IMG/VR virus record: IMGVR_UViG_3300020172_003900
Span: 1-52,423 of that record
Strand: one strand, 5' to 3'
DNA length: 52,423 nucleotides
From: a virus
In this document: one piece after another, positions 3,174 through 45,153 of the stretch
Layout: the number at the start of each line of letters is the position of its first letter
How positions within the stretch are numbered: position 1 is the stretch's first letter
Position numbers and translations under genes: made by a program
Notes under the pieces: generated by a model
Told to the model about the DNA's origin: nothing
What the model saw: only the letters and a program-made list of their open reading frames with translations
Database searches by the model: none

Positions 3174-3902
3174 TTATTTTCCTAAATAATCGGATAATTT
3201 TTTCATTAAGTCAAGCGATTTGTTTCCTGAATTAACATTCATACCTGTTGCCCTTGCCATTTGCATCTTTTTTTCCTCATCTAAATTCTCTTCATAGTTT
3301 GTTCTATCTTCAGGATTTAAAAATAAGTAAGCTCCTGGTGTTGATGGTGATGATACTAAATCAAAACAAATTAATTCGAAATCGTCTTGTACTTCATTTT
3401 GTTCTCCCTTTTTTGCTAAAGACCCAACCCCTCTTGAAGAGATACCTAAAGTAACTCCTTGTCTTAGATAGTTTGCGGCCATATCTCCTTTACAGGAAAT
3501 TACCCCTCTTTCGTGAAAACCTGGTGATGTTAATAATTTAATCTTACCCATTAGGATATTACCTTCCCACCAAATATCGGTAATTGAGTGGGACACTCTG
3601 TCTAAATCAATTAAAGATGATTCAGGGTGATTTAATTCTGAAAGTGCGGTACCTTTAGCAATTGCTTTTTTATAATTATCCGCTTCTCTTTTTAATATTC
3701 TTTCAGGATAAACTCTACCATTTCTATTTGGTGTATTGTATTTCTGTAAAACCGCATAGAATTCAAATGGTTTTGAATAATCTAAAAAATTCTTAGATTC
3801 TTTGATTATCTCTGAATTATATTTGTCGTTTGGTGACACATATCCAGCATCCCATTCAATCAGTATTCCTTTACCTGTTTCGCTTGGTCCTAATATTTTC
3901 AT
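3174..3902 (-). CDS. 21: Prohead core protease, T4 gp21-like
   Basis: A serine protease that matures the prohead by cutting scaffold, capsid and internal proteins after (I/L)xE. The 242 residues follow T4 gp21 closely: NRNGRVYPERIL (60-70), ELNHP with the candidate catalytic His92, IWWEGN (110-114), and GISSRGVGSL with the candidate nucleophile Ser155 or Ser156. Length and order of motifs fit the family (212 residues in T4). It lies between portal-side genes and the scaffold, the T4 order. A TATTTATT motif precedes the start, as for other late genes here. Confidence 0.93.
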   Translation of the reverse strand: MKILGPSETGKGILIEWDAGYVSPNDKYNSEIIKESKNFLDYSKPFEFYAVLQKYNTPNRNGRVYPERILKREADNYKKAIAKGTALSELNHPESSLIDLDRVSHSITDIWWEGNILMGKIKLLTSPGFHERGVISCKGDMAANYLRQGVTLGISSRGVGSLAKKGEQNEVQDDFELICFDLVSSPSTPGAYLFLNPEDRTNYEENLDEEKKMQMARATGMNVNSGNKSLDLMKKLSDYLGK

Positions 3903-7261: not shown

Positions 7262-9031
7262 TTATCTTTGAGAACCCCCGAACAACCATAAATATTTTTG
7301 ATAATCATTTTTAGTCGCTTCATTATTATAATTATGGTGATTTGGTATTCCAGCTGGCATTACAGGATTAAACGCAATATTTCGACTAGATTCTTCGTTA
7401 TTATTAATAGTCCAAGAACTTAACATCGCCTTTGTTTGTTCAGTAACTTTAGTTAATTGATTAAATGAATTTTCACCCACATAAGTCGCCATTGCAATTG
7501 CCATAATTAAATCATCGTGATGACCTTTTTGATGGTCAGGTCTACCATTTACGTAAATAAAAGTATTCATTTCATTGAACAATCTATTACTGTAAATTTT
7601 AAATCCGTGTCTCATTGACTCTTCAAAGGATGAAATAATTTGAACACGTTTATTGTTAAAATTAAGACCTGGAATTTTGTCTAACGCTTTTGGGTCGTAT
7701 TTCCATTTATTACCCATTTCAACACCGTCAATATACAAGTTTTTATAGTTCATTTCTTGTAATTTTCTTGCGGTTGAAACCCCCATACCACCTGTGATAT
7801 CGATTACTATAAACGCATTATACATCATAGCCCATTTGTACGCAATCTCAGCAGCAACGTCTGGCGGTATTTTACCAATATATTCTAATACTTGTTCTCT
7901 CTCATCAAAATCAATAATAATCATTGATGTAAAGTCTTCAGAATCACCTCTTGATACGTCAACTCCCATAATGTATTTGTGACCTTCAACAGGTTCTTTC
8001 CACATCCATAAAGCACCACCCATCATTTTGTTGTTTGGTTCTTTTAACATATTTTGTTTAATATCCTGTAACTGTTTTGAGTCAAATACGTTATCACCTG
8101 AACCTAAGAAATTACATTCCAACTCCTGAGATACTTTACGTTTGTCGTATTTAAGTTTTTTAACCATACTTTCAAACCAAGATGAAGTTGGTTTAAACCC
8201 ATCCGAAATTTTTTGTTTTATTTCTTCAAAATCTCTAGTTCTTGGGTCGGTCTTCGATAAATCAATAATTTCTAAATCTTTATAATCTTCACGATTTAAG
8301 AAATAGTGAATTAAATCTTCAACTTTAATTAATTGTAAATCTTTTGTGTATCTTGGGTCTTTAAACCAAAACATCTCAGAGATTTTGAAATCGTTCATAC
8401 CTCTTAATGCTTGGTCATAAATCTCATAATAAATTGGGTCGTATCCGTTTGGAGTTGATACCACAATAACCTTACCCCCTGTAGATAGGGACGCCATACA
8501 CGCTGACCAAAAATCTCCGTCAGCCTCAATAAACGCGGCCTCGTCAAATATAAGAATTGTTGGGGTATATCCCCTTAACGCATCTCGTGATGTTGCTACG
8601 GCTTTAACTTCACATCCGTTAGTTAACTTATAATGTCTTTGTGAATTTTTTTCATTCGAGAATCCAACACCAGTCCAATTTGGCCACTGTTCTGTAAATC
8701 CTCTAATTTTGTTAGCCATCTCCATTGATGTATCTAACTTGTTGGCAATAATTAGAATTTTTTCAGGTTTCTTTTTAGATGCAAAAACTATTTTTTTTGA
8801 AGCCCAAGCGGCGGTAACTGTAGACACACCTGCTTGACGGTATTTTAAAGCAATATTTTCGTTATAATTTTCGTAGTCTTCAAGTAATGATACTTGGTCA
8901 GGGAATAATTCTAATGGTACATACTGTGACACAGTATTATCGTAAGTTTGTAGATAAGTTTTAAGTGCGTAAGGAGTATTCTTTACGCACTTAGTATATT
9001 CTAATATTAATTGTTCTTTTGTGAATGACAT
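7262..9031 (-). CDS. 17: Terminase large subunit, T4 gp17-like
   Basis: The ATPase-nuclease motor that packages and cuts DNA. The N-terminal ATPase shows a variant Walker A, KYRQAGVST (63-71), in which the usual GKT lysine is missing and a lysine sits earlier, as in many phage terminases, and a Walker B, ILIFDEA (159-165). The C-terminal RNase H-type nuclease is marked by IMGVDVSRGDSEDFTS with Asp358, and further acidic residues follow (IDITGG, HHDDLIMA). At 589 residues it is near T4 gp17 (610). No small terminase is recognisable nearby. Confidence 0.94.
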   Translation of the reverse strand: MSFTKEQLILEYTKCVKNTPYALKTYLQTYDNTVSQYVPLELFPDQVSLLEDYENYNENIALKYRQAGVSTVTAAWASKKIVFASKKKPEKILIIANKLDTSMEMANKIRGFTEQWPNWTGVGFSNEKNSQRHYKLTNGCEVKAVATSRDALRGYTPTILIFDEAAFIEADGDFWSACMASLSTGGKVIVVSTPNGYDPIYYEIYDQALRGMNDFKISEMFWFKDPRYTKDLQLIKVEDLIHYFLNREDYKDLEIIDLSKTDPRTRDFEEIKQKISDGFKPTSSWFESMVKKLKYDKRKVSQELECNFLGSGDNVFDSKQLQDIKQNMLKEPNNKMMGGALWMWKEPVEGHKYIMGVDVSRGDSEDFTSMIIIDFDEREQVLEYIGKIPPDVAAEIAYKWAMMYNAFIVIDITGGMGVSTARKLQEMNYKNLYIDGVEMGNKWKYDPKALDKIPGLNFNNKRVQIISSFEESMRHGFKIYSNRLFNEMNTFIYVNGRPDHQKGHHDDLIMAIAMATYVGENSFNQLTKVTEQTKAMLSSWTINNNEESSRNIAFNPVMPAGIPNHHNYNNEATKNDYQKYLWLFGGSQR

Positions 9032-14886: not shown

Positions 14887-16911
14887 ATGATAGAGTCAAT
14901 GGATAACGAAAACCAAAAAGAAAACAAAAGAACCTCAGATTCATCAACACCCGCGTTAGATAATTTTAGTCGTGATTTGATTAAATTGGCGGAGCAAGGT
15001 AAATTAGACCCTGTTGTTGGTAGAGAAAAAGAAATTTTGCGTATCGCACAAATTCTTTCTCGTAGAAAAAAGAATAACCCAATTATTATTGGTGAACCTG
15101 GTTGTGGTAAAACCGCAATTGTCGAGGGTTTGGCTATGAAAATATATGAAGGGGATTGTCCAAGAAATTTAGCAGATAAAAGAATTTTATCCTTAGATAT
15201 GACATCTATTGTTGCTGGTACAAAATATAGAGGTCAATTTGAGGAAAGAATGAAAGTGGTTATTGAAGAGTTACAATCAAACCCTGATATCATTGTGTTT
15301 ATAGATGAAATTCACACTATAGTTGGTGCGGGTAATTCGTCAGGTTCATTAGACGCTTCTAATATCTTTAAACCAGCACTTGCTCGTGGAGAAATCCAAT
15401 GTATTGGGGCTACTACTTTAGACGAATACCGTAAAAATTTTGAAAAGGATGGGGCGTTAGAACGTAGATTCCAAAAAGTGATTGTTGATGGAGCAACTAA
15501 GGAAGAAACTTTAGTAATTTTACAAAACTTAAAAGATAGGTATGAGAATTTTCATAAAGTATCTTTTAGTGATGAAGTACTTCAAACTTGTGTTAATTTA
15601 GCTGAGAGATATATTACTGACCGAGAATTTCCTGATAAGGCTATTGACATATTAGATGAAGTTGGTGCTCGTAGTCAAGTTGATATTAAATTACCTGAAA
15701 TTATTGAGGAGTTAAAGTTGAAGGCTCTTGATATTAAAAATCAAAAAGTTGAGGTAGTTAAAAGTCAGAAGTATGAGGAAGCTGCTCAACTTAGAGACAA
15801 AGAAAGAAAAATCACGTCTAAACTTGAAGACGAAAAAAAGAAATTTGAAGAAAGTTTAAATACCAAAAAGAAAGAGGTTACTTTGGAATTGGTTTACGAT
15901 GTGGTTTCAAATATGACTAAAATACCTGTTAGTAAATTAAATGCCGATGATACTAAAGCATTAGTTGATTTGGATGTTAATTTAAATAATAAAGTTATTG
16001 GTCAACCTGAAGCGGTTAAGCGTATTGCAAAATCGATTCGAAGAAATCGTTTAGGTATTAAGGACCCAAATAGACCAATTGGTTCATTTATATTCTTAGG
16101 GTCGACTGGTGTTGGTAAAACATATTTGGCAAAACAATTAGCCAGAGAAGTTTTTGGTAGTGAAGATAATCTTATCCGTGTTGATATGTCCGAATACCAA
16201 GAGAAACACACAGTATCTCGTTTGATTGGGGCTCCTCCAGGATATGTTGGGTATGATGAAGGTGGTCAATTAACCGAACAGGTTAAAAACAAACCTTATT
16301 CTGTAATCTTATTTGATGAGATTGAGAAAGCAAACAAAGACATCTTCTCATCTTTACTTCAAATGTTGGATGACGGTCATATGACTGATGGTTTAGGTCG
16401 TAAGATTAACTTTAAAAATTGTATCATCATTATGACATCAAACTTGGGTGTTAAAAAACTACAAGATTTTGGTAATGGTGTTGGTTTTTCAAATTCAAAT
16501 AACGCATTTGTTAATGAAGAATTAAGAAAACAAACATTACAAAAAGAGTTAAAGAAATTTTTTGCACCTGAATTCTTAAACCGTATTGACGATACTATTA
16601 TCTTCAATAGCTTAGGTCAAAATGATGTTGATAAGATTGTTGCAATCGAATTAGATAAACTAAAAGTTCGTTTAGATAATATGAAATATCAAATTACATT
16701 TGATGATTCAATTTCTAAGATGATTTCTAAAGTTGGATTTGATGAGATGTATGGGGCTCGTCCTTTAAAAAGAGCGATTCAAGACAAAGTTGAGGACTTT
16801 ATTTCGGAAGAAGTACTTAAAGGGAACATTAAAGAAGAAATTACTTATGTCCTAATTACGGAAGATGGTGAAAATGTAACCATCCAAACTAAAAAGAAAA
16901 AAGGGGTTTAG
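14887..16911 (+). CDS. clpC: ClpC/ClpA-type AAA+ unfoldase lacking the N-domain
   Basis: A 674-residue unfoldase with two AAA+ domains. D1 Walker A is GEPGCGKT (69-76) with Walker B IIVFIDE; the middle region carries a UVR-type motif ([13 protein letters not shown]); D2 Walker A is GSTGVGKT (405-412), with the ClpB/ClpC-type [13 protein letters not shown] and FLNRIDD sequences. A VGF tripeptide at 532-534 lies where ClpC proteins dock ClpP. The usual ~150-residue N-terminal adaptor-binding domain is missing: the D1 domain begins by residue 20. A phage ClpP is encoded at 44482-45153. Host-type promoter and palindromic operators precede it; MDNENQ (ATG 14899) is an alternative start. The stop codon lies in the loop of the terminator. 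Confidence 0.95.
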
Positions 16912-18897: not shown

Positions 18898-18929
18898 TTT
18901 GGATATTTACAAAACTATTAGTATCTTTG
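18898..18929 (+). promoter_or_regulatory. Promoter of the tmRNA gene
   Basis: TTTG (18898-18901), 20 bases, TATCTTTG (18922-18929): a full match to the Bacteroidota promoter consensus, about 20 bases before the mature tmRNA 5' end. Confidence 0.88.
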
Positions 18930-18932
18930 TAA

Positions 18933-18945
18933 TGTTCTTTGAAAA
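18933..18945 (+). promoter_or_regulatory. boxA-like element in the tmRNA leader
   Basis: TGTTCTTTGAAAA resembles the NusB/S10-binding boxA of rRNA leaders (TGCTCTTTAACA in E. coli). It lies between promoter and mature RNA. Close copies precede several tRNA units in this window. Confidence 0.6.
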
Positions 18946-18948
18946 TAT

Positions 18949-19333
18949 GGGGATGAATGGAATCGATTGGCATAGTTGGTTATCGGTGGCACGTAGGAAC
19001 TGAGTTAATTCCTTAAAAACTGATTCAAACGATTAGACGGCAACGTTCTAGACAAAATGGCTCTATTAGGTCTTGTTAAACAAGATGAGCTTGTAGCGGT
19101 AGCGTAAGCACAACTACATTCGGGTCGGCAGACATATAACCCAGGAACAGGAGTCTTTGATGGGTTTGGTTTCTACCCTAAAGAAACTAAGTGGAGGAAT
19201 AGTTCTCAGTAAACCGAACCACTTTAAAAATAAGGGAATTGTGAATTTCGGAGTATTAGAAAATACTGACCTAAACGTGTAGTCACCTATAGTCAAGATG
19301 AACAAGACGAGAGTTCGAATCTCTCCATCTCCA
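18949..19333 (+). ncRNA. ssrA: Transfer-messenger RNA (tmRNA)
   Basis: Rescues stalled ribosomes and tags the unfinished protein. The 5' end GGGGATG pairs with CATCTCC at 19326-19332, discriminator A, giving the tRNA-like acceptor; the T arm GAGAGTTCGAATCTCTC is complete. The 5' domain has AATGGAATCGATTGG. The reading frame after TTAGAC starts with GGC at 19039 and ends at TAA 19105-19107: it begins GNVLDKMALLG and ends DELVAVA, 22 residues; a shorter 17-residue tag would follow the second TAGAC. CCA is not encoded. Host tags in this phylum are usually short and end ALAA, so this tag is unusual. A terminator follows. Confidence 0.92.
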
Positions 19334-19341
19334 CTAAAATG

Positions 19342-19461: not shown

Positions 19462-19626
19462 ATGAAAAATTTAATTTTCGCAATCGGTGTAGTAGCAGTA
19501 TTATCTTCTTGTGGTGGTAACACTAAAACTGAAGAAGTATCTAAAACAGATTCAACTGCAGTTGTTACTGACTCTACAAAATGTTGTGCAGATTCTACTA
19601 TGGTAGACACTACATCGGTAAAGTAA
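19462..19626 (+). CDS. Small predicted lipoprotein
   Basis: A 54-residue protein read directly from the sequence: MKNLIFAIGVVAVLSSCGGN..., a short signal peptide with lipobox LSSC and Cys17 as the likely lipidated residue. The mature part is Thr/Ser/Asp-rich with a CC pair. It is the only open frame between a promoter-like element and the terminator at 19652-19671. Phage lipoproteins of this size often act in superinfection exclusion or at lysis; neither is shown here. Confidence 0.8.
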   Translation: MKNLIFAIGVVAVLSSCGGNTKTEEVSKTDSTAVVTDSTKCCADSTMVDTTSVK

Positions 19627-22537: not shown

Positions 22538-22566
22538 AAAAAAATACGACATAATGTCGTATTTTA
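22538..22566 (-). terminator. Terminator of the RNA ligase gene
   Basis: A perfect 10-base stem AAAATACGAC (22541-22550) / GTCGTATTTT (22556-22565), followed on the minus strand by a long T run. It lies at the end of the gene ending at 22564. Confidence 0.88.
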
Positions 22567-23646
22567 AAGTTTTTCAAACTTAGGTTTGAGGTATTTCCAT
22601 ATAATATGGTCATATGGTTTTCTATCCCACATTGCAAAACATAGTGATTTAACTTTAGGATGTACTTTATTAAGTTCTAAATGTTCTGCAAATTCTTTCT
22701 TAGTAGGTTCAACTTCTCTATCACCATACTTTCCATATCGGAAATAGTCGTGTAGTTTTCCCGCATACTCAGAATAACGATAATGGTTATAATTTAAAGT
22801 TGAAACGTACTGTTTTACTTTTTTATAGAATTCATCAGGAACGTCCTTCAAATAATCCTCCATTTTACCTCCAGTACTTAAAACCTCCCAAACACCAGTA
22901 GTAGATAGGTTAGTCATTATTTTATGAAGACGAAGATATTCTTCACCTTTTATCTTCATTCTATCTCCATTAGAGAATCTAACCACAAACCCTTCTTTAT
23001 TATCTGCAATTGCGTGTTTTAAGTAAGTGTAGTCAGATATACCATCATATTTTCTAACGATATTAAACCCTAAGTTGTTTAAAAGGTTTTTGAACCTAAC
23101 ATCTACATTATTACCTGAGTGTATGTTAACCTCGTAACCATCTTTAGTGTGTATCATTCCTAATAATACCAAATCTTCAAAATCGTAAGAACAAACTATT
23201 CTATTCTCAGGATAGATTATTTCAAACAAATAAGTATAGTCAGGGTTTAATCTCTGATATTCATATTTTTGAAGTAACTCAGTACCTTTAACCGATTGGT
23301 CAGAAGTAAAAGAACCACGAGTCGCAAGAACCCACTCACCTTTGTAGTTGAATAAGATTCCCAAAGAACCGTCCATTTTTTCATACACATCAAAATCCTC
23401 AGTTGGAGTGTGTTGGTTTTCTTCTATGTTGAAGAATTTCTTAAATGGTCTTGCAACAACATTACCCTCATTGTCAGTAACCAATCCACGGCATTGTTTG
23501 GTAACATCATCCCAAAATTTATATTGGTTATTACCTTCACCGTATTGAACCTTTGGAGTATAGTTCCATATAGTCAAAGGAAGGGTAGGATGCACTTGTT
23601 TTTGCACCAACTCTTTCTCGTAATATTTGTTCAATTGCTCTAACAT
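22564..23646 (-). CDS. RNA ligase, T4 Rnl1-like
   Basis: A 360-residue ATP-dependent RNA ligase. Motif I is YEKMDGSLG with nucleotide-accepting Lys90; downstream are RGSFTSD, YLFEIIYP, EGFVVRF and the motif V lysines in RMKIKGEEY. In T4 this enzyme repairs tRNA cut by host defence nucleases. With 28 phage tRNAs nearby, the same job is likely. A perfect host-type promoter ends five bases before the ATG, so the message is probably leaderless. Confidence 0.88.
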   Translation of the reverse strand: MLEQLNKYYEKELVQKQVHPTLPLTIWNYTPKVQYGEGNNQYKFWDDVTKQCRGLVTDNEGNVVARPFKKFFNIEENQHTPTEDFDVYEKMDGSLGILFNYKGEWVLATRGSFTSDQSVKGTELLQKYEYQRLNPDYTYLFEIIYPENRIVCSYDFEDLVLLGMIHTKDGYEVNIHSGNNVDVRFKNLLNNLGFNIVRKYDGISDYTYLKHAIADNKEGFVVRFSNGDRMKIKGEEYLRLHKIMTNLSTTGVWEVLSTGGKMEDYLKDVPDEFYKKVKQYVSTLNYNHYRYSEYAGKLHDYFRYGKYGDREVEPTKKEFAEHLELNKVHPKVKSLCFAMWDRKPYDHIIWKYLKPKFEKL

Positions 23647-31424: not shown

Positions 31425-31437
31425 ATTTCAAAGAACA
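31425..31437 (-). promoter_or_regulatory. boxA-like element before tRNA-Pro unit
   Basis: Minus strand TGTTCTTTGAAAT; the 17 bases GTTCTTTGAAATATTGG are identical to those before tRNA-Glu. Confidence 0.6.
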
Positions 31438-33900: not shown

Positions 33901-34485
33901 TTAAGATAAAAAAGACAAAACTTTTTCTTTAATTCCAGATTGTTTTAACCCTTCATTCGCGCTTGGAGTTAAGACAAAATTTTCTAATCCCCAATCGTGA
34001 GTAAACTTCATACCATAATACATACCTGTTTTACCCATATCAAGGTCATCTATTGAAACCCAATGAGTAACTTCGGGATGGTCGTGTAAGTACTGTTTAA
34101 TTTCAATTGTACGAGTTTGTTGTAAATCCCAATCTCTAGACCAAATAAAGTTATTTCCGTGTACCGTACATTCACTTAAATTAGGTGTAAAGGCGATTGG
34201 TTTTTTTGAAATACCTTTTGACTCATAGTACTCACCCATTTCCTCAACATTTGCCCATCTTTTCCAATCCGAAGATACAACAATCTCAGCACCAGTTTCT
34301 TCTAAAATTTTATTTAAAACTTTAACCGCCTTTTCGTTGAAGTTGTCAAATCTATACTCGATTGGCATACCTTTAACATCCATAGTAAGTTTATTACCTT
34401 CCCATTTTTGTCTTTTCTTGTAACGACCTCCCCACTCTGTGGATAAACAGATTACTCCGTCGTGGTCTAAAAATATAACTTTCAT
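33901..34485 (-). CDS. HAD-superfamily phosphatase (RNA-repair-type candidate)
   Basis: A 194-residue protein with the HAD nucleophile motif MKVIFLDHDGVI (Asp7, Asp9), motif II in EIVVSSDWKRW, and an acidic motif WVSIDDLDMG. The sequence pattern recalls HAD domains found in multi-domain RNA-repair proteins. A phosphatase acting on RNA ends would fit with the RNA ligase and cREC genes, but the substrate is unknown. The next gene upstream ends two bases before its ATG. Confidence 0.78.
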   Translation of the reverse strand: MKVIFLDHDGVICLSTEWGGRYKKRQKWEGNKLTMDVKGMPIEYRFDNFNEKAVKVLNKILEETGAEIVVSSDWKRWANVEEMGEYYESKGISKKPIAFTPNLSECTVHGNNFIWSRDWDLQQTRTIEIKQYLHDHPEVTHWVSIDDLDMGKTGMYYGMKFTHDWGLENFVLTPSANEGLKQSGIKEKVLSFLS

Positions 34486-38346: not shown

Positions 38347-38377
38347 CAAAGATACAACCAATATTTCAAAGAACAAA
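38347..38377 (-). promoter_or_regulatory. Promoter of the tRNA-Glu unit
   Basis: Minus strand TTTG, 19 bases, TATCTTTG. A boxA-like GTTCTTTGAAAT overlaps the upstream element (38363-38375), so that boxA could act only on transcripts from farther upstream. Confidence 0.75.
38363..38375 (-). promoter_or_regulatory. boxA-like element before tRNA-Glu unit
   Basis: Minus strand TGTTCTTTGAAAT, part of a 17-base identity with the element before tRNA-Pro, and likewise just downstream of a short ORF plus terminator. Confidence 0.5.
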
Positions 38378-43990: not shown

Positions 43991-44003
43991 TGTTCTTTGA
44001 AAT
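43991..44003 (+). promoter_or_regulatory. boxA-like element before tRNA-Leu
   Basis: TGTTCTTTGAAAT directly after the -7 box, the same arrangement as in the tmRNA leader. Confidence 0.6.
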
Positions 44004-44481: not shown

Positions 44482-45153
44482 ATGGATTACGGAAAAGAAT
44501 TTAAGTCGTATTACACGAAACACTTGTACAAACCATCAAGTAATTTGGATTATTATTCAAAACAGATTGAGAACTCAATGACTCCATATATTTTGGAAGA
44601 AAGAGAGATGAGAGCAACTCAAATCGATATCTTTTCAAGATTGATGAGGGACCGTATTCTATGGGTCGCTGGTGAAGTGAATGATAATATGTCAACAATA
44701 GTACAGGCACAATTAATGTTCTTGGACTCTGCTGACACTTCAGACATCACAATGCACATCGATAGTCCTGGAGGTTCTGTTAAATCAGGTTTAAGTATGG
44801 TTGACGTTATGGATTATATCAAATGTGATATTCGTACCGTAAACACAGGTATGGCAGCTTCAATGGGTTCAATTCTATTGGGGGCAGGTACCAAAGGTAA
44901 ACGTTCTTCATTGAGGTTTTCTCGCACAATGTTACATCAGTCTTCAGGTGGATTCCGTGGTAACATTCAAGATGCGGAAATCGATATGAAAGAATGGAAA
45001 AAGATTAACGATACTTTATTTGAATTGTTAGGTTCTTATTGTGGTAAGACCGCCGCTCAAGTAAAGAAAGATGCAAGTCGTGATTTATGGTTATCTTCAG
45101 AAGAGGCTTTAAAATACGGAATCATCGATGAAATCGTAAAAACTAAGAAATAA
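44482..45153 (+). CDS. clpP: ClpP-type serine protease
   Basis: A 223-residue ClpP homologue. Catalytic triad candidates are all in place: Ser127 in GMAASMGS, His152 in MLHQSS and Asp201 in RDLWLS; HIDSPGGSV and the C-terminal YGIIDEIV also fit. ClpP rings degrade proteins fed by an AAA+ partner, and the phage encodes a ClpC-like partner with a VGF docking tripeptide. The N-terminal 35 residues differ from bacterial ClpP. It is transcribed with two tRNA-Leu genes, an unusual arrangement. An alternative role is prohead-type processing, but gp21 already fills that place. Confidence 0.92.
   Translation: MDYGKEFKSYYTKHLYKPSSNLDYYSKQIENSMTPYILEEREMRATQIDIFSRLMRDRILWVAGEVNDNMSTIVQAQLMFLDSADTSDITMHIDSPGGSVKSGLSMVDVMDYIKCDIRTVNTGMAASMGSILLGAGTKGKRSSLRFSRTMLHQSSGGFRGNIQDAEIDMKEWKKINDTLFELLGSYCGKTAAQVKKDASRDLWLSSEEALKYGIIDEIVKTKK

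Follow-up and report, generated by a model that had tools for sequence, protein, structure and literature searches.

Phage tmRNAs are usually just counted in genome lists. Long tags on such RNAs are not new in themselves, the precedent being mycobacteriophage Alice. In surveys of huge phages, which used ARAGORN as their tool, tmRNAs were reported together with SmpB (PMC7162821), and phages carrying ssrA have been listed elsewhere (PMC4131195). A search of the literature, mostly of papers available without subscription, found no description of the long-tag tmRNA family that we characterize here or of its linkage to Clp genes.

We detected the tmRNA (ssrA) gene in a 52 kb virus fragment from IMG/VR (record IMGVR_UViG_3300020172_003900), all 52,423 nucleotides of which were analyzed and are called the window; it carries portal, terminase, and prohead protease genes of the T4 type and more than 25 tRNAs. 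The gene occupies 18949..19336 on the plus strand and matched Rfam model RF00023 over its full length (positions 1-374) with 86.5 bits, where the cut-off is 47 bits (Rfam cmscan, E 2.9e-32), so the covariance model confirmed the tmRNA named in the first-pass annotation. The tRNA-like ends and promoter that had been described there as clear were all found. The acceptor stem has seven pairs, GGGGAUG (18949-18955) with CAUCUCC (19326-19332), and reading from the sequence, the alanine identity pair G3-U70 is present (G18951-U19330) and the T-arm is standard (GAGAG-TTCGAAT-CTCTC). The 3' end is A-CTA at 19333-19336; CTA follows the discriminator base and CCA is not encoded, so the 3' end must come from tRNA nucleotidyltransferase. 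Upstream, TATCTTTGTA (18921..18932, plus strand) contains the Bacteroidota-type -7 promoter element TAnnTTTG, which precedes the gene in 93 of 106 related tmRNA loci. The host of this large virus is probably a member of the Bacteroidota.

A boxA-like leader element, GTTCTTTGA, lies just 5' of the tmRNA start (18934..18942, plus strand) and was seen in 86 of the 106 related loci. Four of its six copies in the window precede tmRNA or tRNA genes by no more than ~35 nt, and those at 18934-18942, 31428-31436, 38366-38374, and 43992-44000 stand just 5' of the tmRNA gene and three clusters of tRNAs, which suggests that these elements are antitermination-type leaders for the stable RNAs of the phage. 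The tRNA arrays are adjoined by a T4-type RNA ligase (22564-23646) and a Swiss Army Knife RNA repair-type HAD domain (33901-34485), possibly for tRNA repair against host nucleases. Directly 3' of the tmRNA terminator hairpin is a small lipoprotein-like open reading frame (MKNLIFAIGVVAVLSSCGG..., 19463-19626).

ARAGORN gave no tmRNA call in the window, which would be consistent with a pseudogene or a chance resemblance, but this reading is barely conceivable given the Rfam E-value, the G3-U70 pair, the conserved promoter, a covarying pseudoknot 1, and the more than 130 relatives described below. Run on 113 complete genes of the long-tag family, ARAGORN called 40 and placed the resume codon wrongly in about one-third of those. 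Because the program misses or misreads most of the family, these genes are probably under-reported.

The tag reading frame, GNVLDKMALLGLVKQDELVAVA plus stop, runs along 19039..19107 on the plus strand and opens with resume codon GGC (19039-19041) after UUAGAC; its 22 codons (19039-19104), closed by stop TAA (19105-19107), predict a peptide twice the usual bacterial length. Pseudoknot 1 (18996..19027, plus strand), 11 nt from the resume codon, consists of helices H3, GGAA (18996-18999) with UUCC (19009-19012), and H4, UGAGUU (19001-19006) with GAUUCA (19022-19027). When it was compared over 81 unique relatives, two forms were scorable at fixed columns (14 and 45 sequences), and 22 of the 81, some of them class C (see below), fell off those columns, apparently through one- or two-base shifts. 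Both helices were 95-100% paired in both scorable types (59 sequences), whereas shuffled partners paired in at most 91% (type 1 H3), 89% (type 2 H3), and 78% (type 2 H4) of cases; type 1 H4 is near-invariant, so covariation is uninformative there. Both forms end 11 nt before the resume codon and have an A at -4, although our tag parser demanded this A, and finding it in every other relative therefore adds no independent support. The tmRNA of E. coli (AAAAAAUAGUC) likewise has an 11-nt spacer from pseudoknot 1 to the resume codon and an A at -4 (PMC2481249), and we therefore take the first TTAGAC to be the resume signal.

The covarying pseudoknot and the constant spacing thus uphold the 22-codon frame after TTAGAC that the first-pass annotation had proposed, at the expense of its other option, a 17-codon tag (KMALLGLVKQDELVAVA) resumed at a second TAGAC. 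That motif does occur at 19049-19053, and ARAGORN chooses internal resume codons in some relatives, but the site corresponds to codons 4-5 (Leu-Asp) of the 22-codon frame and is not conserved, with LN, YN, IN, FA, or TIS codons there in relatives, whereas the first TAGAC keeps a constant, covariation-backed distance from pseudoknot 1. Resumption at the second motif is therefore very unlikely. We also checked for a model with another resume codon and an ALAA-type tag; the resume codon was 19039 and no ALAA-type tag was found. The RNA fold of the tag region was not unusually stable (z -0.95).

Searches with two independent baits, the tmRNA body and ClpP, brought in over 130 viral loci, nearly all with tags of 20-24 codons; many of these contigs are closely related, so the counts describe a clade and not independent events. 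A degenerate GNVLDKMA pattern was found in 44 viral stretches, 39 of which, along with the window, bear such a tag, and in ~85,000 cellular species genomes it had nine matches, none of them in a tmRNA. A pattern built on the tmRNA body, independent of the tag, detected at least 120 viral stretches. Nearly all tags were read as 20-24 codons across the 141 tmRNA loci parsed, ten of which were misread or left unread by the parser script; most of those ten that were checked by eye were also long. A whole-gene DNA search of a phage collection gave no match to the window tmRNA, and tblastn with the 21-aa tag gave no matches; matches to the L012 query were short stretches resembling terminator or tRNA sequence, not tmRNA. 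In the tmRNAs of L012 (6700-7100, minus strand), L015, L026, L031, and L049, the T-loop is GGCAGTA, not TTCGAAT, and the acceptor stem is intact.

Three classes of tag were distinguished. Class A, the majority pattern and that of the window, reads GN[VT]xx[KN][ML]xxxGL... and ends in V-small-A, and the minority classes read GNVYxxMExAG[IL]LATSxVA(V)A (class B) or end in FEDAMAFVGADYAVAA (class C). Long class C tags with near-canonical ends (EYALAA, ADYAVAA) were seen in L160 (near 1584-1655), L094, L142, and L115. In L165 (near 8952-9017), a window-type tag adjoins an ATPase of another branch, an arrangement that points to recombination between the tag and its flanking genes. Over ~60 unique tags of 20-24 aa, Gly11 was invariant and Leu12 near-invariant. 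The 58 unique 21-codon tag DNAs of classes A and B had invariant Gly11 and Ala21 and a nearly invariant Leu12, and pairwise differences among them favored codon position 3 (17123 vs 10717 and 9034). The extended N-terminal part of the tag is thus under selection. Ala21 is not universal, as ClpP-baited L337 and L341 end in VVTI and L334 in VTVS, which are less degron-like.

These unusual ends, and the fact that GNxxxKMxxxGL is strongly conserved whatever the C-terminus, would fit a tag that is mainly not a degron, in which the N-terminal segment would be an address or inhibitor peptide that binds an adaptor, scaffold, or host protein and leads to another fate. We regard this as improbable, since the great majority of tags end in A after V or A, Clp machinery adjoins the tmRNA, and the binding partner of an address peptide is only putative.

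Upstream of the tmRNA, the window encodes a ClpC-like AAA+ unfoldase (14887..16911, plus strand) with two AAA domains, no N-domain, and a VGF ClpP-docking loop (Pfam AAA_2 1.9e-68, ClpB_D2-small 2e-20; best PDB match ClpC, 2.7e-218). We found the [VIL]GF docking loop in all 36 full-length ATPases, and the Clp_N domain in none of 25 records (22 from IMG/VR and three huge phages). A ClpP-like serine protease (44482..45153, plus strand; Pfam CLP_protease 8.2e-59; PDB ClpP 7.7e-48) retains the Ser/His/Asp triad context, GMAASMG, MLHQ, and SRD, in alignment to PDB ClpP. PHROGs assigns this protein to a head maturation protease family, but a T4-type S77 prohead protease is encoded separately (3174-3902), which reduces the likelihood of a capsid function for ClpP.

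Linkage of these genes to the tmRNA was assessed in the same 25 records, consisting of the window, 21 other IMG/VR records, each 100 kb or longer, and three huge phages, with the ATPase present in 22 and ClpP in 18. Within the 22 IMG/VR records, all 19 with class A tags have the ATPase on the tmRNA strand, 2.1-5.0 kb upstream, and usually a ClpP further downstream; the three records lacking the ATPase have class B (two) or class C (one) tags. Loci with at least 6 kb of upstream sequence gave the same picture: the ATPase was there in 39/39 of class A, 0/4 of class B, and 0/8 of class C. In three class B records an ATPase is encoded elsewhere, not next to the tmRNA, and a search of class C records, one of them 132 kb long, detected no Clp ATPase. 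With ClpP as an independent bait, 20 further records yielded the tmRNA in 17, the ATPase in 18, and both in 16; in 16 of the 17 tmRNA-bearing records the two share a strand, the ATPase preceding the tmRNA by no more than 5 kb (~2.8-3.9 kb apart), and all 17 tags were class A-like. Class A tag differences were uncorrelated with ATPase differences (Mantel r 0.07, p 0.18), and tag identity tracked tmRNA body identity (Mantel 0.26, p 0.003). An SmpB gene was detected in none of the 22 IMG/VR records, which are fragments.

We suggest that this is a functional phage-encoded one-piece tmRNA whose tagged proteins are most likely degraded through the phage's own ClpC-like ATPase together with phage or host ClpP, a reading that we favor with moderate confidence. 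Host AlaRS would charge the RNA, as the intact G3-U70 pair implies, and the charged tmRNA would act with host SmpB on stalled ribosomes, so that an unfinished protein would gain Ala followed by GNVLDKMALLGLVKQDELVAVA. The tag may then serve as a degron with a small-hydrophobic C-terminus, and tagged proteins would be unfolded by the neighboring ClpC-like ATPase and degraded with phage ClpP (or host ClpP). Proximity and the docking loop together make the phage Clp pair the likeliest reader.

The proposal in the first-pass annotation that tagged proteins could be routed to a phage Clp pair stands in part. Such routing is plausible from the gene content: the pair is encoded, and its conserved linkage to the tmRNA strengthens the case. 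Against it, class A tags do not track the ATPase, VAVA or VAA ends are also seen on class B tags, even though class B phages usually have no ATPase in their sequenced part, and in L165 a window-like tag occurs alongside an ATPase that belongs to another branch. Since tag identity does not track the ATPase, either recognition may depend on the conserved residues or a host protease does the work, and degradation of tagged proteins by a host protease is possible. A stricter form of routing, in which reading of the tag would be confined to phage ClpP and the adjacent ClpC without an N-domain, directly through GNxxxKMxxxGL with no adaptor, and host ClpXP would ignore it, is a tentative and rather doubtful idea.

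The same observations bear on a further reading, in which the tmRNA is a supplementary copy with a drifted tag, the small-hydrophobic ends (VVA, VAVA, VAA) still suffice to send products to host ClpXP, and the neighboring Clp ATPase has other purposes. Most tags do end in small hydrophobic residues, tag-ATPase covariation is absent, and class C ends (ADYAVAA/EYALAA), which come from records lacking a phage Clp ATPase, are close to Bacteroidota-type NYALAA. We consider drift a real possibility but still unlikely, as the internal GN..K[ML]...GL is kept over very diverged phages, beyond the needs of a simple C-terminal degron, and the ATPase linkage is tight. A whole family that keeps a long tag and a linked unfoldase/protease offers a testable case for phages redirecting ribosome-rescue products to their own protease, and the conserved internal tag residues a natural series of candidate degrons for comparison.

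Compared with known systems, the window tmRNA resembles the Bacteroidota-type one-piece tmRNA in its G3-U70 pair, pseudoknot 1, 11-nt spacer, and in-frame tag with stop, and its tag opens with Gly as does GENNYALAA. It differs in a tag of 21-22 aa rather than 9, in an end of VAVA/VVA rather than NYALAA, and in its RF00023 score (86.5 bits vs 120-169 bits for the cellular type). Cellular tmRNAs of Bacteroidota type on provirus-like contigs, which we take to represent Bacteroidota hosts, had the 9-aa tags GENNYALAA, GETNYALAA, GEENYALAA, and GESNYALAA; they were drawn with a short-tag pattern, so this sample is biased to short tags and shows form, not frequency. Set beside this host-type GE[N/T/S/E]NYALAA, the 22 aa ending in VAVA bear out the earlier idea that the phage tmRNA has a long tag of its own. 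The phage ATPase is a close relative of the ClpC of ClpCP, with the [VI]GF loop and an M-domain region, and the phage ClpP keeps the triad context; unlike ClpC, the ATPase is without the N-terminal adaptor-binding domain. Bacillus phage G and Prevotella Lak phages are large phages that also have a tmRNA, but with short tags (AKLNITNNELQVA, 13 aa, and DDEIDFRMAA, 10 aa, the latter read by eye). In the huge phages LR745206 and LR756502 (L053, L054), we found SmpB and Clp genes and no tmRNA above the Rfam cut-off; the tmRNA gene may have been lost from them or have diverged strongly. Huge phage LR756504 (636 kb) has a related Clp ATPase and a long tag of ~24 aa (DNVNSFEQSILNELFAPVEMAVAA, read by eye), but it encodes its own SmpB, and its tag is unrelated except at the end. 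The length of 8-15 codons cited at first as usual is fair for bacteria, but phage tags can exceed it: the tmRNA of mycobacteriophage Alice (Bixzunavirus) is likewise phage-encoded with a long, non-ALAA tag (ATDTDATVTDAEIEAFFAEEAAALV, 25 aa), though its tag sequence is unrelated and its host is actinobacterial.
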